From assembly GCA_017526785.1 (NCBI GenBank), contig JAFXQV010000036.1, positions 30,155 through 94,154 on the forward strand: 64,000 nt of DNA. The letters are read 5' to 3'. Made by a program: the position numbers and the translations under genes. Positions 26,680 through 45,880 of this stretch are shown here, piece after piece. Below the pieces are notes generated by a model that worked only from the letters and a program-made list of their open reading frames with translations, did no database searches and was not told where the DNA came from. The stretch's first letter is position 1, and every line of letters starts with the position of its first letter. This stretch comes from Oscillibacter sp. Its GTDB lineage: Bacteria; Bacillota; Clostridia; Oscillospirales; Oscillospiraceae.

Positions 26680-29600
26680 TCATTTGCGGGTGAAGTAGCC
26701 CGGCGCGGACGCGCCGCCGTCAATCCGGGCGTACGCTTTATCAACGTAGCCGCTGTCGTACTTTGTCCCCGCGCCGCCCACAAGAGACCAGCAATCCTTG
26801 AACATGAAGGAACCGTAAATCACGGAGGCAATTGTGAACTTTTCAGAAGCGTAAATCGTTTTCAGTCCGCTACAGCCGTCAAACATACTGGACATATACG
26901 TGACGTTGGCGGTATCGAAGTGAGATACGTCCAGCGCCGTCAGTCCGCTACAGCCCCAAAACATACTGGACATAGACATGACGTTGGCGGTATCGAAGTG
27001 GGACACGTCCAGCGCCGTCAGTCCGTTACAGCCACCAAACATACTGGTCATATACGTGACGTTGGCGGTATCGAAGTGAGATACGTCCAGCGCCGTCAGT
27101 CCGCTACAGCCGTCAAACATACCGAACATATACGTGACGTTGGCGGTATCGAAGTGAGATACGTCCAGCGCCGTCAGTCCGCTACAGCCGGAAAACAGAG
27201 AAGCCATATCCGTGACGTTAGCGGTATCGAAGTGGGACACGTCCAGCGCCGTCAGTCCGTTACAGCCACCAAACATATCGCGCATATTTGTGACACTGGC
27301 GGTGTCCAGATTCCGAATATTGTCTACATGTTGCAGATTTCTACAATCAAAAAACCAATACGCCGTAGCTTTTGGACTGATTTTGTCAGCGAATTTCACC
27401 ACGCGCACAGATTCCCGCTCATTGTACCACGGCGCGTAAGAACCGTTTTCCGAATAGACCGCGTCCAAATCAACCTTGTATGTCTTTGTGACGCTCTTGC
27501 CGGATTCTGGCGTGTCGCCGTGCTGGAAAGTCAGTGTGCCGTCACTGTAGAGTAGCGCGTAAACGTCCGTAGCGGGTTCGGGTTTGGGCGCGTTCTTGTC
27601 GGTGAAGTAGCCCGGCGCGGACGCGCCGCGGTCTATACGGGCGTAGGCTTTGTCCGTATGGTCGTTGTTGTATCTCGTCCCGTACCCGCCGACCAGCGCA
27701 TAACAACCCGTGAACATGTCCTTGCTGTCCATCACTTTAGAGACATCGAACGTATAATAATCAGTGTCAATTTCCCGCAGGGAAGCGCAACCGGAAAACA
27801 TCTGCCGCATATTGGTGACATTTTCGGCGCTCCACGTTCTCAAATCCAGCGTTTCCAGCGAACTGCAACGGGCGAACATAGAACTCATGTTCGTGACCGC
27901 GCCGACATCCAGATTTTCAAAGCCCCGGATTTCCGTCAGGTTTTCGCAACCGTAGAACCACAGCGCCGTGGACAAAGGCCGGACAGGTTCGGCAAATGTC
28001 ACGGTTTTAATATCGGCGCGGCGTTCGTACCATTTCGCGTATTCGCTGAGCGCGTCAACCGCATACGCCTGAACAAGCGTTTTTTCCGGATTCGGCCTGT
28101 TTTCGTTCTGAAATACCATTTCCCCGTCCGCGTAGAGAAGCGCGTACAGCCTGCTTTCCTGTTCCCACTGGGCGTATAGGGAGAGATTCTGACTGACAGT
28201 CAGTGTCGCGCCGTCTGTGTAGGCGGTGCCGGAGCCGTCCGCGTTCGTGTTCCATCCCGTAAACTGGTAGCCGTCACGCGCAAACGTGTTGGCTTTCAGC
28301 GCGACTATCGAGCCGGACGCGGCGCTTTGCGGCGTCATGGTACCCGTGCCGCCGTTTGCGTAAAAGACAATTGTCCGTTGCGGTTGGATGATAAAGGGCG
28401 TCAGATTCAGGAATCCCGCGCCCAAACGGACGGCTTCCCCGGCGGCGTTCGCGCCGGACGTGTCCAGACTGGCGGCGGAATCCCGCAGAGCGCCGGAAAT
28501 CTGCGCGGGTGTCTGTGCGGTGCCGCGTTCCTCCATGAGAAGCGCGGCGGCGGCGGAGACATGCGGTGCCGCCATGGAAGTGCCGCTGTCTTCTTTGTAA
28601 CCGCCGCCGGGAATACTGCTGTTGACCGCCACGCCCGGCGCGGCGATGTCCACGGCGTCGCCGTAGTTCGAGAGTTCAAAGCGTTTCCAGTTGCTGTCGA
28701 CCGCCGCGACGGTGACGCATTCCGCCATATGCGCCGGACAGTGGCTTTTTACGTCCGAGTTCTGGTTTCCGGCGGCGACAACGACCGTGATATTTTTGGA
28801 AATGGCGTAGGAAATCGCTTCTTCCACATAAGAGCTATGTCTGGCGAGACCGAGACTAAGGTTGATGACATTCGCGCCGTTTTTGGCGGCGTGGTAAATG
28901 CCCAAGCCGATATTGGACGCGTTGCCGCCGCCGTAGGCGTCCAGCACGCGCAAGGGCATAATTTTCACGTTCATGTCCGGGGTACAGCTTGCGATAATCC
29001 CCGAAACATGGGTGCCGTGTCCGTGTTCGTCCTGCGGGTTATTGTCGTTGTCGACAAAATCGTAGCCGGAAACAAGGCGGCCTTTTAACAGAGAGTGCGT
29101 CATGTCCGCGCCGGAATCGACCACGGCCACGACAATGGTACCGTTCATGCCCCGTTGCCGGAGGTTTTCGGCGTACGCCGTAATTCCGGTGGCTTCCGCC
29201 CCCCATGAAGGAGGGGCGGAGGCGTCCAGAAGTTCCGCGCCGTCGGCCTGCATAACGCTGTCCGGCTCCGCGTAGCGCACGGTCGGACACGTCCGCAGGT
29301 ATTCGGCGCATGTCTCCGCTTCCCCGGCGCTGAGGAACTGCAACACATAGAGGTTGTCGGGGCCTTTAATCGTGGCGGCGACATTGTAGGCGCTCAAATC
29401 GGGAAGTTCCGTACAGGACACGAGCAGTCGCGCCAAAATGTACGGGTCGTCGTCGCCGGAAGCGGCTCCGCCGCCGATGTCGCCGTATTCGTCCTGCAGT
29501 TTCATCAATTCTTCGGAGAACTGCGCATAAGCCGCCGCGCCGTTGCCGCTCATGCGGAGTACGGCGGGACTGGCCAGCGGGGTTTGGTTCGCGTCCGCCC

Positions 29601-29898
29601 ACACGATTTTGACACAGTCCGTGTTGGCGACATTCTGTAACGTGACCTGCACGGTCTCCGCGGCCGGGTATCCGGACAGGCTCTTCATCTGGCCGGATTC
29701 GGCGAACACGACGGCAAAGACATTGCCCCGTATCTGGCCGCCGGAGAGCTTCACGTCGCATGAGAAAACGGTGTCGGCGTGACTGCGGTTCTCAATTTGC
29801 ACAGTCCCGGCGCTTGTGTCCGCCGCCGCCGCGTGTCCGATAAACAGCAGGGCGAACGGCAACAGGAAAAGCGGCAGGACGAAACATGTTTTTTTCAT
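26680..29898 (-). CDS. Secreted subtilase (S8) with InlB-type and BspA/DUF285 repeats
   Basis: The 1072-residue product has a signal peptide (1-25, cut near AAAADT), an N-terminal beta domain (30-115), a propeptide (about 155-218, ending VRYAEPDSV), and a complete subtilase domain. Its catalytic residues are Asp261 (VVDSGAD), His294 (HGHGTHVSG), oxyanion Asn378 (AAGNQN) and Ser441 (GTSMAAPH). An InlB-like Flg_new repeat (about 510-580; FYANGGTGTM) and two blocks of DUF285 repeats follow, the second with five almost identical 26-residue units. No SLH, LPXTG or dockerin is seen. It is the last gene of the surface-protease cluster, 69 bp after its paralogue. Confidence 0.92.
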   Translation of the reverse strand: MKKTCFVLPLFLLPFALLFIGHAAAADTSAGTVQIENRSHADTVFSCDVKLSGGQIRGNVFAVVFAESGQMKSLSGYPAAETVQVTLQNVANTDCVKIVWADANQTPLASPAVLRMSGNGAAAYAQFSEELMKLQDEYGDIGGGAASGDDDPYILARLLVSCTELPDLSAYNVAATIKGPDNLYVLQFLSAGEAETCAEYLRTCPTVRYAEPDSVMQADGAELLDASAPPSWGAEATGITAYAENLRQRGMNGTIVVAVVDSGADMTHSLLKGRLVSGYDFVDNDNNPQDEHGHGTHVSGIIASCTPDMNVKIMPLRVLDAYGGGNASNIGLGIYHAAKNGANVINLSLGLARHSSYVEEAISYAISKNITVVVAAGNQNSDVKSHCPAHMAECVTVAAVDSNWKRFELSNYGDAVDIAAPGVAVNSSIPGGGYKEDSGTSMAAPHVSAAAALLMEERGTAQTPAQISGALRDSAASLDTSGANAAGEAVRLGAGFLNLTPFIIQPQRTIVFYANGGTGTMTPQSAASGSIVALKANTFARDGYQFTGWNTNADGSGTAYTDGATLTVSQNLSLYAQWEQESRLYALLYADGEMVFQNENRPNPEKTLVQAYAVDALSEYAKWYERRADIKTVTFAEPVRPLSTALWFYGCENLTEIRGFENLDVGAVTNMSSMFARCSSLETLDLRTWSAENVTNMRQMFSGCASLREIDTDYYTFDVSKVMDSKDMFTGCYALVGGYGTRYNNDHTDKAYARIDRGASAPGYFTDKNAPKPEPATDVYALLYSDGTLTFQHGDTPESGKSVTKTYKVDLDAVYSENGSYAPWYNERESVRVVKFADKISPKATAYWFFDCRNLQHVDNIRNLDTASVTNMRDMFGGCNGLTALDVSHFDTANVTDMASLFSGCSGLTALDVSHFDTANVTYMFGMFDGCSGLTALDVSHFDTANVTYMTSMFGGCNGLTALDVSHFDTANVMSMSSMFWGCSGLTALDVSHFDTANVTYMSSMFDGCSGLKTIYASEKFTIASVIYGSFMFKDCWSLVGGAGTKYDSGYVDKAYARIDGGASAPGYFTRK
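26903..27292. repeat. Five tandem 78-bp repeats coding for DUF285 units
   Basis: The string ACGTTGGCGGTATCGAAGTG, or a one-base variant, recurs at 26903, 26981, 27059, 27137 and 27215, exactly 78 bp apart. Each unit encodes 26 residues of the type FDTANVTYMxSMFxGCSGL. The high DNA identity points to recent expansion or gene conversion. Confidence 0.9.
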
Positions 29899-29931
29899 AT
29901 ATCCGCTCCTTTAACGGTTCGCATTTTCAGG

Positions 29932-29961
29932 AAAGGTTCGCGGCGGATGCCGCGAACCTTT
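29932..29961. repeat. Perfect hairpin after the second subtilase gene
   Basis: A 13-bp perfect stem, AAAGGTTCGCGGC (29932-29944) and its complement (29949-29961), with a GGAT loop. It begins six bases past the stop of the upstream subtilase gene. The core GGTTCGCGGC is repeated in the hairpin at 39611-39638. No long T run follows, so it may be a partial terminator or mRNA-stabilising hairpin. Confidence 0.75.
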
Positions 29962-29967
29962 GGCGCG

Positions 29968-32900
29968 TTACTTTGCGGTGAAGTATCCCGGTGCCGAGGC
30001 GGAATTAATGCGGGCGTACTCCTTGTCCGTATGGTCGCCGGAATAGCCCGGCAGGGCGGCACATCCTTCAAACATGCCGAAACTGTCCGTAACCTGAGAC
30101 GTTGTGAACAGGCCGGAAGCGTAAATTGTTTTCAGCTTGCCACAGTCATAGAACATCATGGAAGTGTTCTCCGTCTTTGCGGTGCGGAATCCGCTCAAAT
30201 CCAGAGAGGTCAGCCCGGAACAGTACGCGAACATATTACTCATATCCGTTACGTAATCCGTATGGAGATTGCCGGGATTTGTGACGGAGGCGAGATTTCC
30301 GCAGTCATAGAACCACAGAGCGGTCGACTCGGGGTAAACAGCGACACCGAAATTGACGGATTTAATCTGTTCCCGTTCTTCGTACCACGCGACATAGCCC
30401 TCAACGTTCTTGTCGTATCCGCCGGAATCGGTCGTGTAGGATTTGACAGCCGTTCTTCCAGATTCGGGGGTCGTATCCTTTTGGAATTTCAACTCTCCGT
30501 TGTTGTAGAGGACGGCGTAAATGGGATTGGTAGGCGGCGGAGGCGGCGGCGGGGGCGTGTTGCCGCTGAAGTATCCGGGACTTGCCGAACCCTTGTCTAC
30601 CCGGGCGTAGGTCTTGTCGGTATGGTTACTGTCGTACACTGAACCCTGTTCGCCCACCACGGCGGAGCAACCCGTGAACATGTCGACGCTGTCCGTCACA
30701 TTGGAGACGTTGAACGTGTCAGAAACCAGAATCGTTTTCAGAATACCGCACCCAAAGAACATCTGGCGCATATTGGTTACGTTTCCGGTATCGAAGCCCC
30801 GTAAATCCAGCGTTTCCAGTCCGACGCAACGGGAGAACATCTGGCTCATGTTCGTTACGCTTTCGGTTTTGAGATTCTCCGGATTCCGGATGGTTTTTAG
30901 GTTCTTGCAGTCATAGAACCAAAGCGCCGTGGACAGCGGGTGAACCTCCTCCGCGAATGTCACGGTTTTAATTGTGTCGCGCAGAGTATACCACAAGGCG
31001 TAGGCCGGTTCCACTGCGGCGTTTATCTGGTAGGGAGCAGCGGCGGTTTTTCGGCCGGAAGCGGGTGTGGCGCTGTTCTGGAACACCAGTTCCCCGTCGG
31101 TGTAGAGAATCGCATAGAAAAATTGTTCCTGTTCTCCCATGAAGTATCCGGGGAAAGACGGGGGATTGTCTATCCGGGCGTAAGTTTTATCGGCGGGGGC
31201 GTTGGGGTAGCGTTGCCGCAACGCGCACCCGGTAAACATGTCGACGCTTTCCGTCACTTTTGCGACGCTGAATTTGTCGGAAGCGAAAACCGTTTTCAAG
31301 TTGCCGCACTGGAAGAACATCTGCCGCATATTGGTCGCGTTTCCTGTGTCAAGGCTTGTCAAGTCCAGCGCTTGCAGATTGGCGCAAAACGCAAACATCT
31401 GGCTCATGTTCGACACGTTTTTCGTGTTCAGATTTTTAATGTTCTGTATGGATTCCAGATTTTTGCAGCCGTAAAACCACAGCGCCGTGGAAGCCGGACT
31501 CACTTCCTCCGCGAACGTGACCCGCTTGATATATTCGCGCTGGTCATACCACGGGGCGTATTCGGCGCTCCCGTCGGCGGACGCGCTGACGGGGTAAGGG
31601 GTGCTTCGTAACGTTTTCCCGGACGCCGGAGTGGAACTGCGCTGGAATACCATTTCTCCGTCTGTGTACAGAAGCGCGTAAAATCCCACGGGTTCGGGAA
31701 GGCGCATATTCACAACGCCCGCCCCGTAGTTTTTGTCCCATCCGGACGGAATCTGAACGGTTTCGACCAGTTTCTTTTCCACCTGCGCGGGGGTCAGAGA
31801 GGCGGATTCCTCCAGCAGCATGGCGGCGCAGGCGGCCACATGCGGACTGGCCATCGAAGTTCCGCTCAATTCCTTATAGCCGCCGCCCGGAACACAAGCC
31901 TTAACATTCACGCCCGGAGCGCCTAAATCCACCGCGTCGCCGTAGTTTGAAAAGTCGGCGGGTTTCAGATTCTTATCAATTGCCGAGACCGTGATACAGT
32001 TTTTGATATGCGCGGGGCAATGGCTTTCCGCGTCACAGCCGCTGTTCCCCGCCGCAACCACAACGACGACATTTTTTGACATCGCGTAGGCTATCGACTC
32101 TTCTTTATAGGAGTTGTGTACCCCGCCGAGGCTCAAATTAATGACATTCGCGCCGTTGTCGGCCGCGTATCGGATGCCCAGCCCGACATTCAGCGTGGTG
32201 CCGCCTCCCGACGCGCCCAGCACGCGTACGGGCATGATTTTAAGATTTGTCAGTCCCGGCGTACAGTCCACGACAATCCCCGCGACGTGGGTTCCGTGGT
32301 AATGCTCGTCCATCGGGTCTTTGTCGTTGCCCACGAAGTCATAGCCGGGGACGGTTCGGCCTTTCAGGAACGGGTGGGTAGTGTCCACGCCCGTGTCCAC
32401 GACGGCGACCGTGATTTGACGGTTAAGGCCGCGTTTTAACAGATTCGCCGCGTAAGCGTCCGCGTGTATGACGGGTACGCCCCACGAAAGGCTGGCGGCG
32501 TCCGCGCCGTTGCCGCCGGGTTCTTCCGAAATGCTTTCCCATGTGTCCGGGGTCACGTAGCCGTCCGGGGAAACACGGCCTTCCAGATAATTCGCGCAGG
32601 CTCTCGCCTCGTCCGGCGTGCTGAACTGAAGCACGGTGTGTCCTTCCGTATCCGATATCCGTTGGACGACGCCGCGCTCCTCCAAGTCCTCCGGCAGCGT
32701 GTCGCCGGAACGCACAATCAGCCGCCCAAGCGCGTATTCGTCATCGTTGAATGCAATGAGTTCCGGGTCATAACCTTGCATTACGCCGAGAACCGCGCTG
32801 GCGAACTCGTCATGATTTTTCGCGTCAAGTTCCGAAAGTCTGGGAACCTCCGACTGGGCGAGGGGCATATAACTTTCGTCCAGCCACATCGCCTTTACCG

Positions 32901-33177
32901 TGTCCTTATCCAGAACATTGTGAATCTCCACGGACATCTCAGACGCCGCCGGGTACTCCACAATAGATTTCATCTGGGCGTTTTCCGCGTAGACGGCGAC
33001 AAACACCGCGCCCCGGATTTCCTCCGCCGTCAAACTGGCCTGAAATTCACATGTCTGGTTCGTCTTGATGAAGCGCTGTCCCGTAATCCGGATTTCCGCG
33101 TCCGCCGCGAAAGCCGTCGAAACGAACAGAATTGCCGCGCATATCACCAGAGAAAGACATAGAAGCTGTTTTTTCAT
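29968..33177 (-). CDS. Secreted subtilase (S8) with three DUF285 repeat blocks
   Basis: The 1069-residue protein has a signal peptide (1-24, AFAADAE), a beta domain, a propeptide (about 120-205; EYALGRLIVRSG), and a subtilase domain with Asp261, His294, Asn378 and Ser441 at the same positions as the downstream paralogue. Three copies of a module (YAxLYxDGExxFQ, followed by WFYxCxNL and DUF285 units, ending YARIDxxxxxPGYF) fill residues about 520-1069, separated by a Pro-rich linker (PPPPPPPP). DUF285 repeats are surface interaction modules. Start is supported by a GGAGGG site. There is no evident wall anchor. Confidence 0.92.
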   Translation of the reverse strand: MKKQLLCLSLVICAAILFVSTAFAADAEIRITGQRFIKTNQTCEFQASLTAEEIRGAVFVAVYAENAQMKSIVEYPAASEMSVEIHNVLDKDTVKAMWLDESYMPLAQSEVPRLSELDAKNHDEFASAVLGVMQGYDPELIAFNDDEYALGRLIVRSGDTLPEDLEERGVVQRISDTEGHTVLQFSTPDEARACANYLEGRVSPDGYVTPDTWESISEEPGGNGADAASLSWGVPVIHADAYAANLLKRGLNRQITVAVVDTGVDTTHPFLKGRTVPGYDFVGNDKDPMDEHYHGTHVAGIVVDCTPGLTNLKIMPVRVLGASGGGTTLNVGLGIRYAADNGANVINLSLGGVHNSYKEESIAYAMSKNVVVVVAAGNSGCDAESHCPAHIKNCITVSAIDKNLKPADFSNYGDAVDLGAPGVNVKACVPGGGYKELSGTSMASPHVAACAAMLLEESASLTPAQVEKKLVETVQIPSGWDKNYGAGVVNMRLPEPVGFYALLYTDGEMVFQRSSTPASGKTLRSTPYPVSASADGSAEYAPWYDQREYIKRVTFAEEVSPASTALWFYGCKNLESIQNIKNLNTKNVSNMSQMFAFCANLQALDLTSLDTGNATNMRQMFFQCGNLKTVFASDKFSVAKVTESVDMFTGCALRQRYPNAPADKTYARIDNPPSFPGYFMGEQEQFFYAILYTDGELVFQNSATPASGRKTAAAPYQINAAVEPAYALWYTLRDTIKTVTFAEEVHPLSTALWFYDCKNLKTIRNPENLKTESVTNMSQMFSRCVGLETLDLRGFDTGNVTNMRQMFFGCGILKTILVSDTFNVSNVTDSVDMFTGCSAVVGEQGSVYDSNHTDKTYARVDKGSASPGYFSGNTPPPPPPPPTNPIYAVLYNNGELKFQKDTTPESGRTAVKSYTTDSGGYDKNVEGYVAWYEEREQIKSVNFGVAVYPESTALWFYDCGNLASVTNPGNLHTDYVTDMSNMFAYCSGLTSLDLSGFRTAKTENTSMMFYDCGKLKTIYASGLFTTSQVTDSFGMFEGCAALPGYSGDHTDKEYARINSASAPGYFTAK

Positions 33178-33208
33178 TTGCTCGCCCTCCCTAACAAATA
33201 CCGTGCGG

Positions 33209-35026: not shown

Positions 35027-35103
35027 GATTCAGGCCTCCTTATCCTTTATAAAACTCTGTCAGAACATGACAGCGTTCCGCGTGTTTTCGGGACGCGGCG
35101 GAA

Positions 35104-36084
35104 TCAGACGATACCGACGGAAAAACCGCCTCCGCCCCCGGCGTCCGCCGTGACGAGGCCGTCCGCCTCCGCGTACTCGACTTCCGGGAGTGTACGCAGG
35201 TAATCGGCGCACCGTTCCGCGTCCGTGTCCGTCTCAAACTGAATCACGTAATGGTCATCCACGTCCTTCACGAGACGGACGGCGTGGTATTCTTGCAGGG
35301 ACGGTATGGAGTTTGCTTTTACAATCAGCCTTCCGAGCGCGTATTCGCCGTTTTGGACGGTGACAGTGACCTTATCGCTATACTCCTGAATCAAGCGGGA
35401 AACCGCGCTTGCAAACTCGTCATGTGTGGCGGCCTGATAGAGAATGCTTTCGTTGTACATGGCGGGTTGTTCTCCTTCCGGCTCCCGGTCTGCGCGGCGG
35501 GCGTCGTACTGATAGAGGTAAAACATCACATCCGCGCGGGGACAGATGCCATTGGGCTGGAACGTGTCCTTGTTTTCTTCCAGCATGCCGTTGTCCTCCG
35601 CCCACGCCAGAGCGCTGACCGCCCAGTGACTTTCGTAGGCGGACGCGATTTCCCCGCCGCCGGATGTTTCCGGCTCTCCCATGGCGCGCCAGAGCATGGT
35701 CAGAATCTGGGCGCGGCTACAGTCCAGATACGGCGCGAAAAACTTGTCCGTGACGCCGTTTGTGATACCACGCTCGACCGCCCATAAAACGGGCTGGTAA
35801 TAATACGCGCCCTCGCGCACATCGGAGAACGCGTTTTGCGTCCCGGATTCCGGACAGCCTCCGGCGCGCCAGAGGAACGTGACGACTTGGGCGCGGGTGC
35901 AGGGCGCGGACGGCGAAAACGCCGTCGCGCTGGTACCCTTTGTAATGCCGCGCTCCACCGCCCATTCCACGGCGGGCGCGAAATAGTCCTCTGCCGCCAC
36001 GTCGGAAAAGCGCACGCTCTCCGCCGCCGCCGCGTTCACGCAGAGCAGCAGAAGCGTCAAGAGCGCCGCAATTCCTTTTTTCAT
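35104..36084 (-). CDS. SLH-anchored protein carrying only a subtilase propeptide domain
   Basis: The ATG at 36084 follows GGGGGTGA. A signal peptide (to about residue 21, NAAAAES) is followed by three SLH domains (about 22-200: FSDVAAEDYFAPAVEWAVERGI, then two more). Residues about 215-315 match the propeptides of the neighbouring subtilases (THDEFASAV, EYALGRLIVKAN, YVIQFETDTDAERCADYLRTLPEVEYAEAD). The protein then stops after a Gly-rich tail, exactly where the catalytic domain starts in the others. No catalytic remnant is found in the 77 bases downstream. It may act as a wall-bound inhibitor or folding chaperone in trans; that is inference. A decayed enzyme is the alternative. Confidence 0.85.
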   Translation of the reverse strand: MKKGIAALLTLLLLCVNAAAAESVRFSDVAAEDYFAPAVEWAVERGITKGTSATAFSPSAPCTRAQVVTFLWRAGGCPESGTQNAFSDVREGAYYYQPVLWAVERGITNGVTDKFFAPYLDCSRAQILTMLWRAMGEPETSGGGEIASAYESHWAVSALAWAEDNGMLEENKDTFQPNGICPRADVMFYLYQYDARRADREPEGEQPAMYNESILYQAATHDEFASAVSRLIQEYSDKVTVTVQNGEYALGRLIVKANSIPSLQEYHAVRLVKDVDDHYVIQFETDTDAERCADYLRTLPEVEYAEADGLVTADAGGGGGFSVGIV

Positions 36085-36110
36085 AACGTCACCCCCATAA
36101 GAGCGTTTTT

Positions 36111-39100
36111 TCAACTTCCGATTGTCAGTGTGCCATTGATAACGGTGAACGCGTCGGTAATGTCGCCGCCGCCGTTGAGAGACGCGTCCACGACCTCCGC
36201 AGTCACGTGATAGGTTCCGGCCTTGGCGGTCTCCGGCACGTTAAAGGAAATCAAGCAGATGTCCCCCTCATAGGTAACTTCCTTGGCGCTTCCGGCGTTC
36301 CACGAGATTTGCAAGGGGTTCTTGCCGTCCTTGGCGTTGTCTACTTGACTTTCAAAAGCGTTTCCGTAAAGAACCTCTTTCACGGAGAATCCCGCAGGAT
36401 ACGCAACCCGGATAATCAGTCCGGCAACGTTGTTGAGGTTCCGGACGGAAACAGGCACCGTTACAGTGCTATCCGTGCCGGGCGTCACTGTGGCGTCGCC
36501 GACCGTCAGCGTCGGAATGGAGTCATCATCGTAATGTTTTTTCAGCGTCACTTGTCCATTATCCACGGCAAACGCGTCGGTAACGTCCCTGCCGCCGTTG
36601 AGCGCCGCGTCGTAGACTTCTACAGCAATGTCGTACGTTCCGGCATTCGCGCTGTCCGACACGTCAAAGTTGATTGTGGCAAGTTCGCCGCTGTAGGTGA
36701 CTTCCTTCGCGCTTCCGGCGTTCCACGAAATTGTCAACGGGTTCCCGCCGTCCTCGGCGTTGTCCAACTGGCTTTCAAAGACATTGTTGTAGACCACGGC
36801 ACCTCTTTTGACGGACAATCCGTCCGGGTAGGTAACTTTGATAATCAGTCCGGCAACGTTATTGAGGTTCGCGGCGGACACAGGCACCGAAACCGTTTTG
36901 TCCCTGCCAATGGCGGCCTCCGCGTCGCCGACTGTCAGCGCCGGGGCGGAATCGTCGTATTTCAGCGTCACTTGTCCTTTGACCGTGACGACATCGCCCG
37001 TAATGTCCTCGCCGCCGTCGAGCGCGGCGTCGGTCACTTTCACGGTAATGTCGTACGTTCCGGCCTTGGCGCTGTCCAGCACGTCAAAGTTGATTGTGGC
37101 AAGTTCGCCGCTGTGGGTGACTGCCTTGGCGCTTCCGGCGTTCCACGCGATTTGCAAGGGGTTCCTGCCGTCCTTGGCGTTGTCCAACTGGCTTTCAAAG
37201 ACATTGTTGTAGGCCACGGTGCCTTCTTTGACCGACAATCCGTCGGGATAGGTGACTTGGATAATCAGTCCGGAAACGTTGTTGAGGTTCGCGGCGGACA
37301 CAGGCACCGAAACCGTTTTGTCCCTGCCAATGGTGGCCTCCGCGTTCCCGACTGTCACGGCGGGCTCGGAGACGGGAAGATTTTTATCCTTGAAATACCC
37401 GGGCTTGGACGCGCCGCCGTCTATGCGGGCGTACGCCTTATCGGTGTGGGCGCTGTCATACGGGGTGTTCTGTCCGCCGAGAATCGCCGTACAGCCTTGG
37501 AACATTCCGGCGCTTTCCGACATCTTCTCCGTTGAAAAACTGCCGGACGCATACACGGTTTTCAGCGCGGCACAGCCCGCGAACATATCCCGCGCGTCGG
37601 TGACGTTTTTCGTATCCCACCCGGTCAAGTCCAGCTCCGTCAGATTGGCGCAGGAGAAGAACATAGATTTCATGCCCGCGACCTTGCGCGTGTCCAGCGC
37701 GCTCAAATCCAGCGTTCTCAGGGACGCGCAACGGGAGAACATCTGGCTCATGTCCGTGACTTCGCTGGTGTCCAGATTTTGAAGTCCACGGACTTCCGAG
37801 AGGTTTTGACAACCGTAGAACCATAAAGCGGTGGAGGCCGGTTTCACGGATTCGGCGAACGTGACCTTTTGGATGTCGGCGCGGTTCGCGTACCATTTGG
37901 CGTACTCGCCGTTAATGTCCCCGGACGAGGCTACCGGATACGTTCCCAGAACGTTTCTGCCTGAAGCGGGCGTGCTGTTCTTCTGGAAAGTCATTTCCCC
38001 GTCCGCGTAGAGAATCGCGTAAAATCCGCTCTGGATAAAGGGGCGCATATTCAGGAAGCCCGCGCCCAAAAAGCTGGTCTCCCCGGAATTTTTCTGCCAG
38101 TCGTCCCAACTTTTGTCCGCCTTGTCGAATGGAATTTCCTTGGCGTTGCTTTTCAGGCTGTTGGCAATCTGGGCGGGTGTCAGACCTGTGCCGAAATCGC
38201 ACATTAACAGCGCGGCGGCGGCGGACACATGCGGAGCCGCCATAGACGTGCCGCTCATAGGTCCTTTCTTTCCCCCCGGCAAAAAGCCCGGCACATCTTC
38301 ACCCGGAGCCGCGATATCCACCGCGTCGCCGTAATTGGACAGCTCGAAGCGCTTCATCCTGTCATTCACCGCCGCGACTGTAATGCAGTCCTCCATATGC
38401 GCCGGACAGCATTTGTGGGCAAAGTCATTGTAATTTCCGGCGGCGGTAACAACCGTAATTCCCGCTTCCAGTGCGCGCTTGACCGCGTCTTCAATGGCTA
38501 TATGGTTTTTTCCGGAAACGCTAAGGCTGAGATTGATGATATTCGCTCCGTGACCGATTGCGTAATTGATTCCGCTGATAATGTTCAAGTGGCTGCCCAC
38601 TCCAAATTCGTTCAGAACGCGAACAGGCATGATTTTTACATCCACGCCGGGCGTACAATCGACAATCGTACTGGCGACGTGGGTGCCGTGTCTGTGTTCG
38701 TCCTTCGGGTCGCCGTCATCTTCGACAAAATCGTATCTGTCAGTTGTCAGGCGCTCTTCCAAAGACGGATGGCCTTCCGCGTCCACGCCGGAATCTATCA
38801 CCGCCACAATGACAGAACCCTTGACACCTCTTTTTTGAATATCCTTCGCGTATTCTCCAATTTCGGTTTTCTCCACCCCCCACGAAAGGGCGTCCTGTAA
38901 AACAGGCTTTTCCTGTTCCGGTTTTTTCTCATACATCATCAACGCGTCCGGCTCCGCATAGCGCACGGAGGGGCAGGCGTTGAGATATTTTTCACAGTCC
39001 TTCGCCACATTCTGGTCGTTAAATTGCAAAACATAAAAATTATCGGGGCCGGGAATTATCGTCATTTGGCTTTCGTATTTGCTCATATCGGGAAGCGGGT

Positions 39101-39581
39101 CACAGGATACCAGCAGGCGCGCCAGCAGATAGGGATTGTCGGAAGCGTCCTGAGGCAGTACATTCGGTGTCTCCAATTTCGCCAGTTTTTGCGCGAATTG
39201 TTCATAAGCCGCCGCGTTATTCTCACGCATGGTCAGCGGGACGGGATTTGCCAGAGGCATATGGTTTTCGTCCGTCCAAAGGATTCTGACGGAATCCTTT
39301 TTCGTGACGTTCTGTAGCTCGACTTTGACCTGTTCCGCCGCCGGATACTCGGCGACCTGTTTGACCTGTCCGGATTCCGCGTGCAGGATGGCGAACAAAC
39401 AGCCCCGCACCGTCGCGCCGGAGAGGCTCACATCACAGGAAAAGGCGGTGTCCGTTTCGTTGCGGCTCTTGATAGTGATGGTGCCGTAGGACGTATCGGC
39501 CGCCCGGACGAACGTCCGCGGAGGCGCGAGGGAAAGCAACAACGCCACAAACAATAACCGGGCGAAAAATCGTCTTCTCAT
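36111..39581 (-). CDS. Subtilase (S8) with DUF285 repeats and three cohesin-like modules
   Basis: Start at 39581 (MRRRFFARLLF) is favoured by spacing; an ATG at 39590 is possible. Order: signal peptide (1-28), beta domain, propeptide (about 150-210), subtilase domain with VIDSGVD, HRHGTHVAS, AAGNYND and GTSMAAPH, one DUF285 block (about 530-750), then three modules of about 130 residues. Each reads VGxAxxxxGxDxTVxVPVSxxNLNNVxGLII, then LQIxWNAGSAK, LATINFDV and KAGTYDI. That is the pattern of cohesin modules, which bind dockerins in cellulosomes. It is thus both protease and possible scaffold. The propeptide-only gene follows after 26 bp. Confidence 0.88.
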   Translation of the reverse strand: MRRRFFARLLFVALLLSLAPPRTFVRAADTSYGTITIKSRNETDTAFSCDVSLSGATVRGCLFAILHAESGQVKQVAEYPAAEQVKVELQNVTKKDSVRILWTDENHMPLANPVPLTMRENNAAAYEQFAQKLAKLETPNVLPQDASDNPYLLARLLVSCDPLPDMSKYESQMTIIPGPDNFYVLQFNDQNVAKDCEKYLNACPSVRYAEPDALMMYEKKPEQEKPVLQDALSWGVEKTEIGEYAKDIQKRGVKGSVIVAVIDSGVDAEGHPSLEERLTTDRYDFVEDDGDPKDEHRHGTHVASTIVDCTPGVDVKIMPVRVLNEFGVGSHLNIISGINYAIGHGANIINLSLSVSGKNHIAIEDAVKRALEAGITVVTAAGNYNDFAHKCCPAHMEDCITVAAVNDRMKRFELSNYGDAVDIAAPGEDVPGFLPGGKKGPMSGTSMAAPHVSAAAALLMCDFGTGLTPAQIANSLKSNAKEIPFDKADKSWDDWQKNSGETSFLGAGFLNMRPFIQSGFYAILYADGEMTFQKNSTPASGRNVLGTYPVASSGDINGEYAKWYANRADIQKVTFAESVKPASTALWFYGCQNLSEVRGLQNLDTSEVTDMSQMFSRCASLRTLDLSALDTRKVAGMKSMFFSCANLTELDLTGWDTKNVTDARDMFAGCAALKTVYASGSFSTEKMSESAGMFQGCTAILGGQNTPYDSAHTDKAYARIDGGASKPGYFKDKNLPVSEPAVTVGNAEATIGRDKTVSVPVSAANLNNVSGLIIQVTYPDGLSVKEGTVAYNNVFESQLDNAKDGRNPLQIAWNAGSAKAVTHSGELATINFDVLDSAKAGTYDITVKVTDAALDGGEDITGDVVTVKGQVTLKYDDSAPALTVGDAEAAIGRDKTVSVPVSAANLNNVAGLIIKVTYPDGLSVKRGAVVYNNVFESQLDNAEDGGNPLTISWNAGSAKEVTYSGELATINFDVSDSANAGTYDIAVEVYDAALNGGRDVTDAFAVDNGQVTLKKHYDDDSIPTLTVGDATVTPGTDSTVTVPVSVRNLNNVAGLIIRVAYPAGFSVKEVLYGNAFESQVDNAKDGKNPLQISWNAGSAKEVTYEGDICLISFNVPETAKAGTYHVTAEVVDASLNGGGDITDAFTVINGTLTIGS
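36115..37365. repeat. Three tandem cohesin-module DNA repeats
   Basis: Three stretches of about 400 bp (roughly 36115-36508, 36530-36945 and 36962-37365) are close DNA copies. Shared strings such as CAAAGTTGATTGTGGCAAG and CTTCCGGCGTTCCACG recur in order. The first two encoded modules are the most alike. Confidence 0.8.
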
Positions 39582-39610
39582 ATGTATCATCCACTCCTTT
39601 TGTTTGATGA

Positions 39611-39638
39611 GGGTTCGCGGCCGACGCGCCGCGAACCC
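39611..39638. repeat. Hairpin after the fourth subtilase gene, same core as at 29932
   Basis: GGGTTCGCGGC (39611-39621) pairs with GCCGCGAACCC (39628-39638). The core matches the hairpin at 29932-29961, which follows another subtilase gene at the same relative place, so gene plus hairpin were probably duplicated together. Confidence 0.7.
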
Positions 39639-39649
39639 GGATGACGGCG

Positions 39650-42373
39650 TTACTTCGCTGTGAAATATCCCGGAGACGACCCGGAATCAATGCGGGCGTA
39701 GGCCTTGTCTACATGGGCGCTGGAATAGGAAGTGCCGTTGCCCCCTTTGAGCGCGGTACATCTGTCAAACATGCCGAAACTGTCCGAAATCTGGGACGTT
39801 GTGAACAGGCCGGAAGCGTAAATCGTCTTCAACTTACCGCAGTCATAGAACATGGTCGCCGTATTGAGGGTTTTCCCGGTATTAAAGCCGCTCAAGTCCA
39901 GAGAAGTGAGGCTGGAGCAATACGCGAACATATTACTCATGTCCGTTACGTAGTCCGTACGCAGGTTGCCGGGATTGCTAATCGACGAGAGATTTTTGCA
40001 ATCGTAGAACCACAAAGCGGTCGACTCCGGATAAATGGCAATGCCAAAGTTGACGGACTTGATTTGTTCCCGTTCCTCGTACCACGCGGTATAGCCCTCG
40101 ACGTTCTTGTCATATCCGCCGGAATCGGTCGTATAGGTTTTGACGGCTGTCCGTCCGGATTCGGGGCTTGCGCTGCTCTGGAATTTCAACTCCCCGTTGT
40201 TGTAGAGGACGGCGTAAATAGGATTGGTGACTTTGCCGGGATTGGGATTAGGATTAGGCGTCGATGTCGAACTGAGGTAACCGGGGCTGGAGGAGCCGCC
40301 GTCCAGACGGGCGTGGGTCTGGTCGGTATGGCTGTCACTGTACACAGTTCCGTTGTCGCCGCGAAGCGACGTACAGCCCTTGAACATGTCCCTCCCGTCC
40401 GTGACTTTTGCGACGCTGAACGAATCAGAGGCGAGAATCGTTTGCAGAGAGGGACACTGGAAGAACATCTGGCGCATATTAGTGACGTTTTTCGTGTCGA
40501 AGCTCTTCAAGTCCAGCGTTTCCAGACTGCCGCAACGGGAGAACATCTGGCTCATATTGGTAACGCCGTCGGTTTTCAGGTTTTGCGGATTCTGTATCGT
40601 TTTCAGGTTTTCGCAGCCGTAGAACCAAAGCGCGGTGGAGGCGGGATGAACTTCTTCCGCGAACGTCACCTTGGTAATTTTGTCGCGCAGGGTATACCAT
40701 CCTGCGTACTGTGCGCTGACGGCGCTGAGAGCGTAGGGACCGCCCAAAACCGTTCTGCCGGAAGCAGGCGTCGAACTGTTCTGGAACACCATCTCACCGT
40801 CGGAGTAGATAAACGCGTAAAATTCCGCGGGTTCCGGGTGCGACCGCATGTCCACGACGCCCGGACCGTATTTTGTATTCCATCCGGACGGAACCTGTAC
40901 GCCGTTCTTCAACACTTTCTCGGCTTCGTCGGTGGTGAGGTTGGGATTTTCATACCGCAGCATCGCGACGCAGGCGGCGGTGTGCGGCGAGGCCATGGAG
41001 GTGCCGTTGAGAGACTTGTACTTGTTGCCCGGAATACAGCTTTTGATGTCGACGCCCGGCGCGGCAACGTCCACGATAGTCTGGCTGTAGTTCGTGAAAT
41101 AGGCGGGCTTGAATTTGCTGTCTACCGCCGAAACGGTAATGCACTTGGCGATATGCGCCGGGCAGTGGTTTTTGGCGTCGTCGGTCTCATTGCCGGCGGC
41201 GACCACCACAATGACGTTTTTGGAAACGGCGTAGTCCACCGCTTCGTCCATGACGGAACTGTGACCCCCGCCGAGGCTCATGTTGATAACGTCCGCGTCG
41301 TTGTCCGCCGCGTACCGGACGCCGAGGCTTACGTTCAGATAGGAGCCGCTTCCGTTCGCGTCCAGAACGCGCACGGGCATAATTTTCAGGTTTGTCAGCC
41401 CCGGCGTGCAGTCCACTATCGTCCCCGCGACATGGGTTCCGTGATAGTGCTTGTCCATCGGGTCGCTGTCGTTGTCCACGAAATCAAAGCCGGGGACTGT
41501 GCGGTTTTTCAGAAACTCGTGACCGGAGTCCACGCCCGTGTCCACGACGGCGACGGTTACTTTGCTATTCATGTTCCGCAGGCTCTCCGCGTACTGGTCG
41601 GCGTGGATAGCCGACACCCCCCATGAAAGGGAACTGGCGTCGATATCGTCCTCACTTTCCACCTCTTCGGGGTTGACGCGTACCGCCATGTCTGGCTCAA
41701 CGTAGTTTCCCGGCGTATCCTTCGGGAGATAGTCCCGCAGACGAGCCGCGCAGTTTTTCGCGTCCTCCGCGCTGTCAAATTGGAGAACGGTATGCCCGTC
41801 CTTGTCCGATACCTGTCTTGCGACATTGCAGTCGGACAAATCCGGCAGGCCGTTGTCGGAGCGGACAATCAGCCGCGCAAAGGCGTAGTCGTCGGTCATC
41901 ATCCCTTCCGAATCGATTTGGCCGCCTTGCGCCAACGCGTCCGGGCTGAACTTGTCGCTGTAGTCCCGGAGCATATCCGACAGGGCGCTGGCGTAGTCCG
42001 CGTACGTATCACAGAGAATGGTTTGCGCGCTTGCCCTCGACACCTCCGACAGCGCAAGCGGCATAAAGCCCCCGTCAGTCCACATGACCTTGACCCGGTC
42101 ATTTTCCACAATCCGGTCAAGCGTCACGGACAGGTTTTCCCGCGCCTCGTAGCTCTCAATGCGCTTCATCTGTCCGCTCTGCCCGTCGTACACGGCGACG
42201 AAAACGGTACTCTGCTCTTCCGCTGTGGAAAGATGAACGTGAAATGTACAGCTCTGATTGGAGAAATCCGCGTCCGTGATTTGCATCTCCGGGGGCGTCG
42301 CCGCCAGCGCGCAGGGTATCAGCAGGACTGCCGCGCATATCGAAACCCAAAGGGTCAACAATCGTTTCGCCAT
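39650..42373 (-). CDS. Secreted subtilase (S8) with two DUF285 repeat blocks
   Basis: The ATG at 42373 has GGGAGGA 8 bases before it; the longer frame lacks support. The 907-residue protein has a signal peptide (1-24, ALAATPP), a beta domain, a propeptide (about 150-215), and a subtilase domain with VVDTGVDSGHEF, HYHGTHVAG, VAAGNETDD and GTSMASPHT. Two DUF285 modules follow (about 520-690 and 720-907), joined by a PNPNPNPGK linker. It is most like the gene at 29968-33177, including the last module. No anchor is visible. All catalytic residues are present, so it should be active. Confidence 0.92.
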   Translation of the reverse strand: MAKRLLTLWVSICAAVLLIPCALAATPPEMQITDADFSNQSCTFHVHLSTAEEQSTVFVAVYDGQSGQMKRIESYEARENLSVTLDRIVENDRVKVMWTDGGFMPLALSEVSRASAQTILCDTYADYASALSDMLRDYSDKFSPDALAQGGQIDSEGMMTDDYAFARLIVRSDNGLPDLSDCNVARQVSDKDGHTVLQFDSAEDAKNCAARLRDYLPKDTPGNYVEPDMAVRVNPEEVESEDDIDASSLSWGVSAIHADQYAESLRNMNSKVTVAVVDTGVDSGHEFLKNRTVPGFDFVDNDSDPMDKHYHGTHVAGTIVDCTPGLTNLKIMPVRVLDANGSGSYLNVSLGVRYAADNDADVINMSLGGGHSSVMDEAVDYAVSKNVIVVVAAGNETDDAKNHCPAHIAKCITVSAVDSKFKPAYFTNYSQTIVDVAAPGVDIKSCIPGNKYKSLNGTSMASPHTAACVAMLRYENPNLTTDEAEKVLKNGVQVPSGWNTKYGPGVVDMRSHPEPAEFYAFIYSDGEMVFQNSSTPASGRTVLGGPYALSAVSAQYAGWYTLRDKITKVTFAEEVHPASTALWFYGCENLKTIQNPQNLKTDGVTNMSQMFSRCGSLETLDLKSFDTKNVTNMRQMFFQCPSLQTILASDSFSVAKVTDGRDMFKGCTSLRGDNGTVYSDSHTDQTHARLDGGSSSPGYLSSTSTPNPNPNPGKVTNPIYAVLYNNGELKFQSSASPESGRTAVKTYTTDSGGYDKNVEGYTAWYEEREQIKSVNFGIAIYPESTALWFYDCKNLSSISNPGNLRTDYVTDMSNMFAYCSSLTSLDLSGFNTGKTLNTATMFYDCGKLKTIYASGLFTTSQISDSFGMFDRCTALKGGNGTSYSSAHVDKAYARIDSGSSPGYFTAK

Positions 42374-42406
42374 AAAGTGTCCTCCCATGCGTTCATCATA
42401 AGGTCG

Positions 42407-42468
42407 CTTCCCCACCTTCCTCCCATCTGAGACAAGCGGACGGAATGAAAGATGGGGAAGTTTTTTTT
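42407..42468 (+). terminator. Plus-strand terminator-like hairpin inside the minus-strand cluster
   Basis: CTTCCCCA (42407-42414) pairs with TGGGGAAG (42453-42460), followed on the plus strand by eight T (42461-42468). No plus-strand gene runs into it, so it could stop antisense transcripts. On the minus strand it would form a leader hairpin upstream of the subtilase at 39650-42373. Confidence 0.5.
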
Positions 42469-42490
42469 GGTATGGCGTATGGCTTACGGC

Positions 42491-44611
42491 TTACCAGTCC
42501 ATATCCTGATACGGCGTGGACTCGAAGCCGTCCGCCTGAAGGCTGGCCACCATGCTGTCCAGCTTGCCGCGCCAGAAGTTCCGGAACCACGCCGTGTCGC
42601 CGAACAGTCTGACCGCCGTCGGGCTGACCGCGTAGTAGAGCTTGATAAACAGACGCCCGTACCACGTCTTGGCCAGAACGTGGTCACGGAAACGGCGCAG
42701 TGTCCAGACCTCCGGGCAGTCATAGGAACCGTACACCGCCGTGGCCACATAGCAGGCCGGGGTCGTCGCTTCCGAGTAATGCGCCGTGAGTTCGGAATTG
42801 TCGGCCAGTGCGGTTATCTCGGTACCGACGGCGTAAAACTGGTTATCCGGGAGCGTCCAGCCGTCGAGGCTCTTGCCAGCGGGCGACGTAAAGCCCGGAT
42901 TCCCCGGAAGGTTGAACGGCAGACGCTCTTTCTTGGTCTGGTTCTCTCCGCTTCCCTCGCCCGGTTTGTAAGTGACCGTAATTTCCTCTACGAAAGGCTT
43001 AAACTCGACGGAAACCGTGGCGTCGCTGTTTTCCATGACGAACGTATACGTTTTTTCGTCAACCTTTTTCGGCATGATTGGCGTCCCGTCGGCTTTCGTG
43101 ACTTTCGGGAAGTCCTCTTTGAGTTGATAGCCCGTCTCCGGCTCCACGGTCAGCGTCACAGTTTCGCCCACATACGCCGAGGGCTGTTTGTCGCTCGTTA
43201 CGCTTCCGTGTTCCACCGTTTCCGGGAGAATCACAAGGCGCGGAATGCCAAATTCGGCCTGTACCGTAACGAAACCGTCAGACGGCAACTCAGTCATTTT
43301 GAACACATATTCCGAAAACGCGTAGTTGGTGCTTTCGGTTTCCTTCCGCTGGCAGGCAACGTCCTTCTTGTCACTGCCTGTCACGGTCAGTTTTTTCAGG
43401 ACATAGCCCTTGTTTGTATCGGGCGTGACCGTCACCGTGACCTCTTCGCCTGTTACGGCCTCGGTCTTGTCGCTCTCCACCTTGCCGCCCTCCTCGGGAA
43501 CGGCCGGAAGAGTTTTCACGGGTTTGGGCTTAGGGTCATATTTAATAAAGGTAGCCTCTGCTTTGACATCGCTTGTGCGGACGGTGAACTTGTAGACAGA
43601 GGCGGCGGCGGTCATGTCACTGGAACGTGTGGGTTCAATTTTGCCGTCCTTATCCGTCACCTTCAGGTCTTTGAGGACATAGCCATTGTTTGTGTCAGGC
43701 GTCACCGTCAGTTCGACTTCGTCGCCTGTTTTGGCCGTTGTCTTGTTGGCCTCGACGGTTCCGCCCGTCGTCTGGACAACCTCGATTTTGTAAACAGGCT
43801 CCCACTTGGCGTAGAGCGTGATGGCGGCGGCAATCTTGACGGGCTGCTCGTCCGTGTACGTCACTTCTCCGTCCTTGGTTTCCGACCAACCGACAAACTT
43901 GTAACCTGTTTTGACAAAGGCGTTTTTGGTCAGCTTCTGCTCCGTGTCCGGCTGGAACGTCTGCGGGTTCATACTGCCGGAGGTCGCGCCGTTGCCGTCA
44001 AACGTCACCACGGGGTTTTTAACTGCTTCTCCGATATGAAGAACCGCGCTAATCCCCTGCATATCCCCGGACTCAAGGCGTTTATCCTGAATGTCCGTAG
44101 CCGCGACAATTTCCGTATCAATAGTTGCGTCAACCGGGGAGGTAACGCCTTCTCTCGGCTTAAAGGTCATCTTTGCCAACACGCCACTGGTTGTCCATGG
44201 ATTGGCGGCGTCAATCGTATATGTGAAAGAAGCAAGAGACCATTTGCTGGCATCGCGTTTATTATTGCTGGTGTCATTCGGATTGCTGTCATTAAAGACT
44301 TTATCCTTTCTTGTGGTCGTTTCCAGAAACGCGTACCAAATATTCGGAACTTTATCAGTCCCCTCTTTGGTGCCTTCGTCATCAATAGCGATACACTCCA
44401 GTTTGTCGCTCTCATAATAGACGCGCAAACTAAGAACTTTCAAACCGGGATTCCCCGCAATATTCATATTAAGGTCAATCGTGTTTCCGGGCATGACACG
44501 CAGGTCATTGTCGACCCATGCGCTCAGTTTGTCATCGGCACCACCGGGAATCACGATGAGGCTCAACAACATACACCATGTCATTACCCACGCGAGCGTT
44601 CTTTTGAGCAT
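42491..44611 (-). CDS. Secreted repeat protein with cohesin-like N-domain, InlB-type repeats and CFI-box C-terminus
   Basis: The ATG at 44611 follows AAAGGAG. The 706-residue protein has a signal peptide (1-24). A cohesin-like beta domain spans about 28-185 (MPGNTIDLNMNIAGNPGL, VYYESDKLECI, GVLAKMTFK). An InlB/Flg_new repeat follows (about 195-265), then three or four PF18998-like bacterial repeats (GGTVEANKTTAKTGDEVELTV). A final domain begins CYVATAVYGSYDCPEVWTL and continues RRFRDHVLAKTWYGRLF, which matches the CFI-box C-terminal domain known from many exported bacterial proteins and of unknown role. It lies 38 bp after the dockerin-like gene in the same operon. Confidence 0.83.
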   Translation of the reverse strand: MLKRTLAWVMTWCMLLSLIVIPGGADDKLSAWVDNDLRVMPGNTIDLNMNIAGNPGLKVLSLRVYYESDKLECIAIDDEGTKEGTDKVPNIWYAFLETTTRKDKVFNDSNPNDTSNNKRDASKWSLASFTYTIDAANPWTTSGVLAKMTFKPREGVTSPVDATIDTEIVAATDIQDKRLESGDMQGISAVLHIGEAVKNPVVTFDGNGATSGSMNPQTFQPDTEQKLTKNAFVKTGYKFVGWSETKDGEVTYTDEQPVKIAAAITLYAKWEPVYKIEVVQTTGGTVEANKTTAKTGDEVELTVTPDTNNGYVLKDLKVTDKDGKIEPTRSSDMTAAASVYKFTVRTSDVKAEATFIKYDPKPKPVKTLPAVPEEGGKVESDKTEAVTGEEVTVTVTPDTNKGYVLKKLTVTGSDKKDVACQRKETESTNYAFSEYVFKMTELPSDGFVTVQAEFGIPRLVILPETVEHGSVTSDKQPSAYVGETVTLTVEPETGYQLKEDFPKVTKADGTPIMPKKVDEKTYTFVMENSDATVSVEFKPFVEEITVTYKPGEGSGENQTKKERLPFNLPGNPGFTSPAGKSLDGWTLPDNQFYAVGTEITALADNSELTAHYSEATTPACYVATAVYGSYDCPEVWTLRRFRDHVLAKTWYGRLFIKLYYAVSPTAVRLFGDTAWFRNFWRGKLDSMVASLQADGFESTPYQDMDW

Positions 44612-44649
44612 GAATAAATCCACTCCTTTCTTGAAGGCGGTCGTGACTT

Positions 44650-45315: not shown

Positions 45316-45438
45316 TGATACAACTCCTCCTTTTCACTTTTCCGCGCTCTTTTAAAACTGCCTGCCCGTATGAACCACGACTTTGCTTCCCTATTTTCAG
45401 GAAAGTTCCGTCAAGGATTCCAATGTTTTACAGTTTTT

Positions 45439-45461
45439 GGGCGTCGGTTACGATTGCGCCC
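45439..45461 (-). promoter_or_regulatory. Hairpin within the long leader of the surface-protease cluster
   Basis: GGGCG (45439-45443) pairs with CGCCC (45457-45461), with an inner TCG/CGA extension. It lies midway in the leader of about 230 bases between the promoter and the first gene. No known riboswitch class was recognised by eye. Confidence 0.45.
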
Positions 45462-45552
45462 GGCTGTCGACCTGACATGTGAGATACGACGAAATCACAT
45501 TTCCGTGGTGCTTTAATTTCTTGCGGACAACTGAAACCGGAAAATTTTTCTT

Positions 45553-45581
45553 ATTATAGCAGAGAAGACCAGCTTTTTCAA
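45553..45581 (-). promoter_or_regulatory. Strong promoter for the surface-protease cluster
   Basis: On the minus strand TTGAAA (45581-45576), a 17-bp spacer and a perfect TATAAT (45558-45553) give one of the best promoters in the window. It points at the dockerin-like gene and, with no clear strong terminator between the following genes, could drive the whole 45-26.7 kb cluster. Confidence 0.8.
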
Positions 45582-45791: not shown

Positions 45792-45844
45792 GGAAAAAAT
45801 TTGGCCTGTGCGCTTGACACGGCCTCTGGCAGAAAATGGAAAGC

Positions 45845-45872: not shown

Positions 45873-45880
45873 GTTCAGCG

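Follow-up and report, generated by a model that had tools for sequence, protein, structure and literature searches.

In a stretch of 64,000 nucleotides from Oscillibacter sp. (assembly GCA_017526785.1, contig JAFXQV010000036.1, positions 30,155 to 94,154 of the forward strand; hereafter the window), a unit of eight genes encodes five subtilases together with proteins that carry cohesin-like and dockerin-like modules. How are the proteases connected to these coupling parts? The original prediction, made from the letters alone, was that the cluster, with its cellulosome-type parts, may describe a wall-bound complex of several proteases; in a cellulosome-like layout the enzymes would dock on a cohesin scaffold. 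The cohesin-dockerin parts proved to be real and are linked to the subtilases by a recurring gene order and by co-switching of module types, but the cellulosome-like layout was not supported: no enzyme of the locus carries a dockerin, four of the five subtilases carry neither module and the fifth carries the cohesins. We propose, with a probability of roughly 0.6 and judging from sequence, that a secreted, wall-bound subtilase set uses cohesin-dockerin coupling in an inverted layout.

Distribution of cohesins and dockerins

All eight co-oriented minus-strand genes (26680-45315) were found with intact frames at or very near the coordinates first noted. Peptidase_S8 matched P0003, P0004, P0006, P0007 and P0008 over its cut-off (139-178 bits), and the motifs of the Asp-His-Ser triad of S8 subtilases (D, HGTHV, GTSM) aligned in all five. 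As predicted, four of them (all except P0006) contained DUF285 over cut-off, and one of these four, P0004, ended in three cohesins (78.7 bits in all; PF00963 cut-off 24.1). The predicted SLH-anchored subtilase and SLH-anchored propeptide protein were identified by Pfam matches as P0006 and P0005, respectively; in P0003, P0007 and P0008 Pfam revealed neither a coupling module nor SLH.

A PF00963 search of the whole genome gave eight matches at E<=1, six of them over cut-off and three of those in P0004. A second locus (contig C27) encodes P0016, a protein with two or more cohesins, beside a further X-dockerin gene, and a third locus (C28) encodes P0018, in which one cohesin is combined with three SLH modules; within the window no SLH-anchored cohesin protein was found. 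The cohesin carriers of this genome are one of the five subtilases and surface proteins. No dockerin-bearing enzyme was detected in the genome, which is 94.6% complete and may thus hide one; its three detected dockerins all belong to X-dockerin proteins, defined here by the order signal peptide, X domain (about 105 residues), dockerin. Among the domain models that bear on the original prediction, PF00963 (in P0004), PF00082, DUF285 and PF00395 gave matches, whereas PF00404 missed P0001 and the domain of P0002 stayed below the PF00963 cut-off.

The X-dockerin protein P0001

Scans with Pfam and NCBIfam found no enzyme domain in P0001. On these scans alone P0001 would have been set aside as not being a dockerin protein, a view that was overturned by the family profile. 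Built from ten relatives with P0001 left out, this profile scored P0001 at 80.2 bits for the full protein and at 29.5 bits for the dockerin alone, with one of the ten rows shortened in the dockerin-only version. The description of P0001 as dockerin-like is upheld by this match, although not by PF00404: in an alignment of 11 X-dockerin members (A3), P0001 among them, ten matched PF00404 at E<=0.01 and P0001 was the sole exception. The two other dockerins of the genome scored over the PF00404 cut-off; both sit on relatives of P0001, with best BLAST stretches of 35% and 30% identity to it (E 8e-20 and 7e-7). The A3 profile matched solved dockerins, best of all a serine-protease double dockerin (entries 8x39 and 8x3a, which presumably represent Cthe_0689; E 2e-21), and weak calmodulin matches ranked after them. 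For the X domain, no convincing match was obtained in Pfam, NCBIfam or the PDB.

Both repeats of the P0001 dockerin contain TGNDVL, the repeat segments are 65% identical and the second calcium loop fits; the reading frame is intact and has a purine-rich, ribosome-binding-like site. Over 31 dockerins, many of them related and some with segments picked in a shifted register (e.g. G406, C_G693, A_G685, D_G693 and G696), the two repeated segments were 70% identical on average, compared to 35% between proteins with the same best-of choice. This 35% is the fair control, because the segment permutation (0 of 10000 as high) reshuffles segments that were preselected as best. Internal symmetry of dockerins accompanies a dual-binding mode but may also be a mere relic of duplication (PMC8063739; what is said here of this and all other cited papers refers to excerpts of them). 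Up to four X-dockerin proteins occur per genome in the genus, and those of one genome probably differ in specificity. X domains lacking a dockerin and followed by other repeats or helices were seen in genomes G252 (L125:3956-8103), G379 (L126) and G031 (L127); in G252 the gene lies directly behind a subtilase gene (Pfam S8).

The cohesin-like domain of P0002

The open reading frame of P0002 begins at 44707, with the likely start at 44611, and its C-terminal CFI-box (NF041770, 74.1 bits) is preceded by InlB-type repeats. A profile of SLH-anchor cohesins from other genomes gave 25.0 bits with the mature N-terminal domain, the best stretch reaching 20.3 bits over 38 residues only; the best of 1000 same-length shuffles of the domain scored 6.2 bits. 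The domain alone was used for this test, since the score of the full mature sequence drew on the repeats behind it. The predicted cohesin-like repeat protein is thus supported by profile, while the domain misses the Pfam cut-off and its best stretch is short. A second profile (A4) of ten SLH-anchor cohesins plus the P0002 domain, hence no independent test of P0002, matched 19 PDB sequences. Thirteen of them bear the label scaffoldin, anchoring protein or cohesin, four are NagJ, a cohesin-bearing enzyme, and the last two carry the label endoglucanase and are paired with a dockerin chain.

An X-dockerin/SLH-cohesin cassette and its link to the subtilases

Of 400 genomes of the family, 16 had a full-length X-dockerin protein; nine of the 16 (this genome included) supplied rows of A3. 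Three more genomes, from two other families of the order (295 genomes searched), had one as well. Twenty-one loci were inspected, and the following counts leave out the window copy. The protein upstream of the X-dockerin carried SLH in 20/20 loci and a cohesin at E<=0.01 in 16/20. Downstream proteins could be scanned in 15 of the 20 loci, the other five running off contigs: 12 had SLH and three a cohesin at E<=0.01, two of these over cut-off. Genome searches with PF00963 yielded further cohesin matches in downstream proteins, some below cut-off. The N-domains of the large proteins encoded downstream were also built into a profile as a cohesin test, which was rejected as too diverse; in most of these proteins the N-domain is only cohesin-like. 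The window copy has no SLH-cohesin gene upstream of P0001; a polysaccharide deacetylase gene is located there, behind a terminator-like site. After the X-dockerin gene of genome G080 follows a protein without SLH (L052:8432-9799) in which a cohesin-like stretch (22.5 bits, below cut-off) is combined with a C-terminal dockerin of its own (31.3 bits) in an adaptor-like layout. The compared genomes are mostly fragmented and several contigs end within these repeat-rich genes; breaks inside or beside X-dockerin or cohesin genes are frequent (C27 of the window's genome, G000; C39 of G671; C40 and C15 of G693; C117 of G685), and X-dockerin loci are therefore probably under-counted in draft genomes.

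Among the 61 genomes of the genus, A3 matched at E<=0.001 in 15, and a full-length X-dockerin was present in seven (G000, G671, G676, G685, G687, G693 and G696; in G676 in two stretches). The subtilase profile likewise matched in seven genomes, of which four gave long matches (G000, G676, G685, G693), two matched in the S8 core and one in the repeats only. The four genomes with long matches all belong to the seven that have X-dockerins; a Fisher test, which ignores kinship, gives p 7e-5, and 9e-4 when the two S8-core matches are included. The gene order itself, dockerin, cohesin or CFI-box protein and subtilase, recurs in two of them. On one contig of G693 (L140) the genes for an X-dockerin, a CFI-box protein, a DUF285 subtilase and a subtilase with three cohesins, all over cut-off, follow each other, and in G676 (L143) the order is SLH lipoprotein, X-dockerin, CFI-box protein with two cohesins, subtilase. 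In G685, an SLH-subtilase and a DUF285 subtilase are ordered like P0006 and P0007, with catalytic regions 85% and 79% identical to theirs, on a short contig separate from the X-dockerins of that genome. As most cassette genomes outside the genus gave no match to the subtilase profile (13 of 18), we read the cassette as the older and general element, to which proteases were tied in this genus.

Co-switching of dockerin and cohesin types

The three cohesins of P0004 share 58-69% identity with the cohesins of P0016, whose gene lies on a different contig of the same genome, and the three cohesins of the G693 subtilase are 65-72% identical to the cohesin beside the corresponding X-dockerin gene of G693. 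Across the two genomes, cohesins are 18-30% identical. When the cassettes of G000 and G693 were compared, the X domain (80-82%) and the SLH lipoprotein (74%) were similar but the dockerin (33%) and the cohesin (22%) were not; G676 and G671 displayed the reverse pattern (X domain 55-57%, dockerin 82%, cohesin 63%). The six pairwise identities of the X-domain core range from 57 to 82%, the same extremes as with the cut that includes the Gly/Ser linker of G676. In this comparison of four genomes, for which the first 76-80 residues of the cohesins were used because a contig cuts the G671 gene, dockerin identity followed cohesin identity over the six pairs (Mantel r 0.95, reached in 2 of 24 label permutations), and X domain identity showed no correlation of this kind (r -0.61). 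Although the sample is small, these data point one way, namely that one code constrains the dockerin and both cohesin loci.

Proposed coupling of the subtilases to the surface

The gene order and the co-switching of the modules, compared between sister species, suggest that the cohesins and dockerins really pair. In the inverted layout, the dockerin would serve as a plug on a small non-enzyme surface protein with signal peptide and X domain, and the cohesins would be the sockets, located on the protease P0004, on the CFI-box/repeat proteins P0002 and P0016 and on the SLH anchor P0018. X-dockerin proteins would thereby clip P0004 to surface proteins, and P0006 would be held at the wall directly by its own SLH modules. 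For the cohesins of P0004 the likeliest partner is the dockerin of P0014 from the second locus rather than that of P0001, because these cohesins match those of the second locus; P0001 most likely binds its neighbor P0002. The coupled proteins may form a complex, in which the other four subtilases might play a part.

The remaining SLH-held protein, P0005, contains a stand-alone propeptide (PF22148, 22.0 bits, cut-off 21) that is 31-43% identical to the propeptides of the five subtilases, and no peptidase domain was found in it by domain search. P0005 probably acts in trans on the subtilases, either folding or restraining them, and is a possible wall-bound inhibitor or chaperone of its neighbors. 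The PrsA-like foldase P0009 may assist subtilase folding, and the purpose of the whole set would be the degradation of protein for nutrition. A more elaborate version, to which we give somewhat less than even odds, is an inverted and multiplexed system, without dockerin-bearing enzymes as far as detected, with up to four X-dockerins and several cohesin types that probably have separate specificities; in it the code is swapped between species as a module and the protease is wired to the surface through the sockets of one pair.

Alternative explanations

The most serious alternative to the inverted layout, which we nevertheless regard as unlikely, is that a subtilase array and a general surface cassette, which perhaps serves wall or S-layer architecture, are unlinked neighbors, the cohesins of P0004 being a chance fusion. 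Outside the genus, 13 of the 18 cassette genomes gave no match to the subtilase profile, four matched in the S8 core and a single one (G343) had a long match, on a contig separate from its X-dockerin. Within the genus, three of the seven genomes with full-length X-dockerins (G671, G687 and G696) have no long match either, and in G693 cohesins are also found on large LRR or Big-domain surface proteins. Since most cassette genomes outside the genus are without these subtilases, the cassette by itself does not amount to a protease system, and we weighed the inverted layout slightly lower and the unlinked neighbors slightly higher. Against the inverted layout also stands that P0004 and the cohesin-bearing subtilase of G693, whose catalytic regions share only 49% identity, may not be orthologs. 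What speaks for a link is the dockerin-cohesin-subtilase order found again in G693 and G676, and a pair of subtilases from different species that bear three cohesins apiece, in each case of the type found in their own genome.

Rather less probable is that the dockerin of P0001 has decayed and no longer binds, the unit then being a mere set of secreted subtilases and the cohesins of P0004 remnants or parts that serve other loci only. PF00404 gave no match in P0001 even at E<=10, and the first calcium loop is degenerate: in the family alignment F replaces the first Asp and two extra residues are present. Decay is opposed by the repeat segments of P0001, which are still alike and keep their shared motif, and by its intact frame with a ribosome-binding-like site. 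Further points weigh against the inverted layout in general. P0002 reached just 13.1 bits with PF00963 (17.7 bits in the genome-wide search), below the cut-off, and was not matched by the profile from the N-domains of downstream proteins. Four of the five subtilases have neither cohesin nor dockerin, so that a complex of all five is not implied, and contig C27 stops inside the cohesin gene of P0016.

It is slightly less probable again that concerted evolution by gene conversion explains the likeness of cohesins within a genome and that this likeness is irrelevant to binding. Repeat-rich loci convert easily, and the two cohesins of the G676 CFI-box protein are 95% identical to each other. Between loci, however, fourfold silent sites are mostly diverged (43-68% identical in six pairs of G000, 40-51% in three pairs of G693, at a random expectation of 33% derived from the composition of P0004), and a recent copy event is therefore unlikely; the values of G000 lie above random, with 68% in one pair, so an older conversion is possible there. 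Conversion of cohesins is also difficult to reconcile with dockerins that switch along with them while the X domain stays.

A cellulosome-like complex, in which the subtilases gather via dockerins on a cohesin scaffold held at the wall by SLH proteins, would agree with cohesin, dockerin, SLH and subtilase genes in one unit and with dockerin-bearing S8 proteases known elsewhere (PMC12484212; PMC8542988), but it is the least probable explanation and largely refuted, because dockerin-bearing enzymes were not found and the three-cohesin protein P0004 is itself a protease.

Comparison with known systems

In Clostridium perfringens, glycoside hydrolases carry cohesins on the enzymes (X82 modules) without a scaffold (PMC12997984), which resembles P0004; there, both partners are glycoside hydrolases, whereas here the dockerin is on a small non-enzyme protein and the cohesins are on a subtilase and on SLH/CFI-box proteins. 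Among the ScaO/ScaO2-type scaffoldins of Acetivibrio and Clostridium alkalicellulosi, a single protein can unite a cohesin with an S8-peptidase-like domain; the case described is A. mesophilus WP_128706311.1, which ends in a Coh1-Doc1 pair and belongs to a cellulosome producer (PMC11557425). P0004, unlike this protein, has three cohesins, no dockerin and DUF285 repeats, and its genome yielded no dockerin-bearing enzyme. The Cthe_0689-type S8 protease is also tied to scaffoldins by cohesin-dockerin pairing (PMC12484212), but it bears a double dockerin, a polarity opposite to that proposed here. Coupling in a gut bacterium that includes peptidases is known from the Limousia mucinolysome, with many dockerin-bearing CAZymes, six dockerin-bearing peptidases and scaffoldins, one of them with a sortase motif (PMC12997984); here there are three dockerins, none on an enzyme. 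The cellulosome-like complex of Ca. Stygibacter, inferred from genomes, contains dockerin-bearing S8 and C25 peptidases and one large scaffoldin-like protein in the classical polarity (PMC8542988).

No X-dockerin/SLH-cohesin cassette and no three-cohesin subtilase was encountered in the literature searched, which comprised excerpts and left subscription papers outside. Judged by this literature, three things are new: the X-dockerin cassette, a dockerin-free subtilase bearing three cohesins, and dockerin and cohesin codes that switch together. If the inverted layout is correct, cohesin-dockerin coupling, with its usual polarity turned round, serves proteolysis and architecture at the cell surface, and dockerins and cohesins at separate loci that change their code jointly would be a natural record of a rewired high-affinity interface. 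Sister-species module sets, with similar X domains and different dockerins and cohesins, allow a direct test of partner change and possibly offer new orthogonal cohesin-dockerin pairs for protein engineering. The stand-alone propeptide of P0005 raises the idea of wall-bound subtilase control.

Layout of the locus and neighboring features

The coordinates of all features are collected in Table 1. Gaps between the eight genes, measured at the likely starts, are 26-117 bp. The predicted promoter ahead of the unit was recovered as an 11/12 site (45581..45553 in reading direction), by consensus match; it sits downstream of a 12-pair terminator-like site (45873..45844). P0009 follows the eighth gene after a gap of 151 bp, and it may be the ninth gene of the same transcription unit because the next strong minus-strand terminator-like site comes only after it.

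Table 1. Features of the subtilase locus in window coordinates.
Feature	Position	Strand	Basis
P0001, signal peptide + X domain + dockerin, 221 aa	44650..45315	-	family profile, full-length relatives
Dockerin of P0001	44653..44880	-	family profile
P0002, cohesin-like N-domain, Flg_new, four Flg_new_2 repeats, C-terminal CFI-box	42491..44611	-	Pfam, NCBIfam
Cohesin-like domain of P0002 (limits approximate)	44033..44536	-	PF00963 below cut-off, profile
P0003, subtilase + 2 DUF285 stretches	39650..42373	-	Pfam
P0004, subtilase + DUF285 + three C-terminal cohesins	36111..39590	-	Pfam
Three cohesins of P0004 (about 36969-37370, 36549-36950, 36126-36521)	36126..37370	-	Pfam
P0005, 3 SLH + stand-alone subtilase propeptide (about 35143-35433)	35104..36084	-	Pfam
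P0006, subtilase + C-terminal SLH	33209..35026	-	Pfam
P0007, subtilase + 3 DUF285 stretches	29968..33177	-	Pfam
P0008, subtilase + Flg_new + DUF285 stretches	26680..29898	-	Pfam
P0009, PPIC-type foldase, weakly PrsA-like, possible ninth gene	24933..26528	-	domain searches
Promoter-like site, TTGAAA-17-TATAAT, sigma-70-like, extended TG	45553..45581	-	11/12 consensus match only
Terminator-like site, 12 pairs, between the polysaccharide deacetylase gene and the unit	45844..45873	-	consensus match only
Terminator-like site, 10 pairs, after P0009; next strong one on the minus strand	24902..24925	-	consensus match only

Further proteins with related modules were seen in the sister genomes. At L156 (G693) and L162 (G685), three adjoining large surface proteins with one C-terminal cohesin each are 82-86% identical between the genomes; those of G693 contain LRR, Big and other surface domains. 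Dockerins beyond the X-dockerin family occur on repeat proteins of G693 (L152:2900-4576) and G676 (L153:1375-6672), on neither of which an enzyme domain was found, and G702 has six dockerin matches in long frames. A DUF285 subtilase of G693 (L141:7630-11040) ends in three Sel1 repeats, and outside the genus a 2214-residue frame of G343 (C79:10042-16326) encodes a subtilase of the type seen in the window, with several DUF285-type stretches behind it. In the window itself, the adjacent genes P0013 and P0010 (18189-24104) encode family 3 glycoside hydrolases, and in P0010 the C-terminal domain precedes the N-terminal one.

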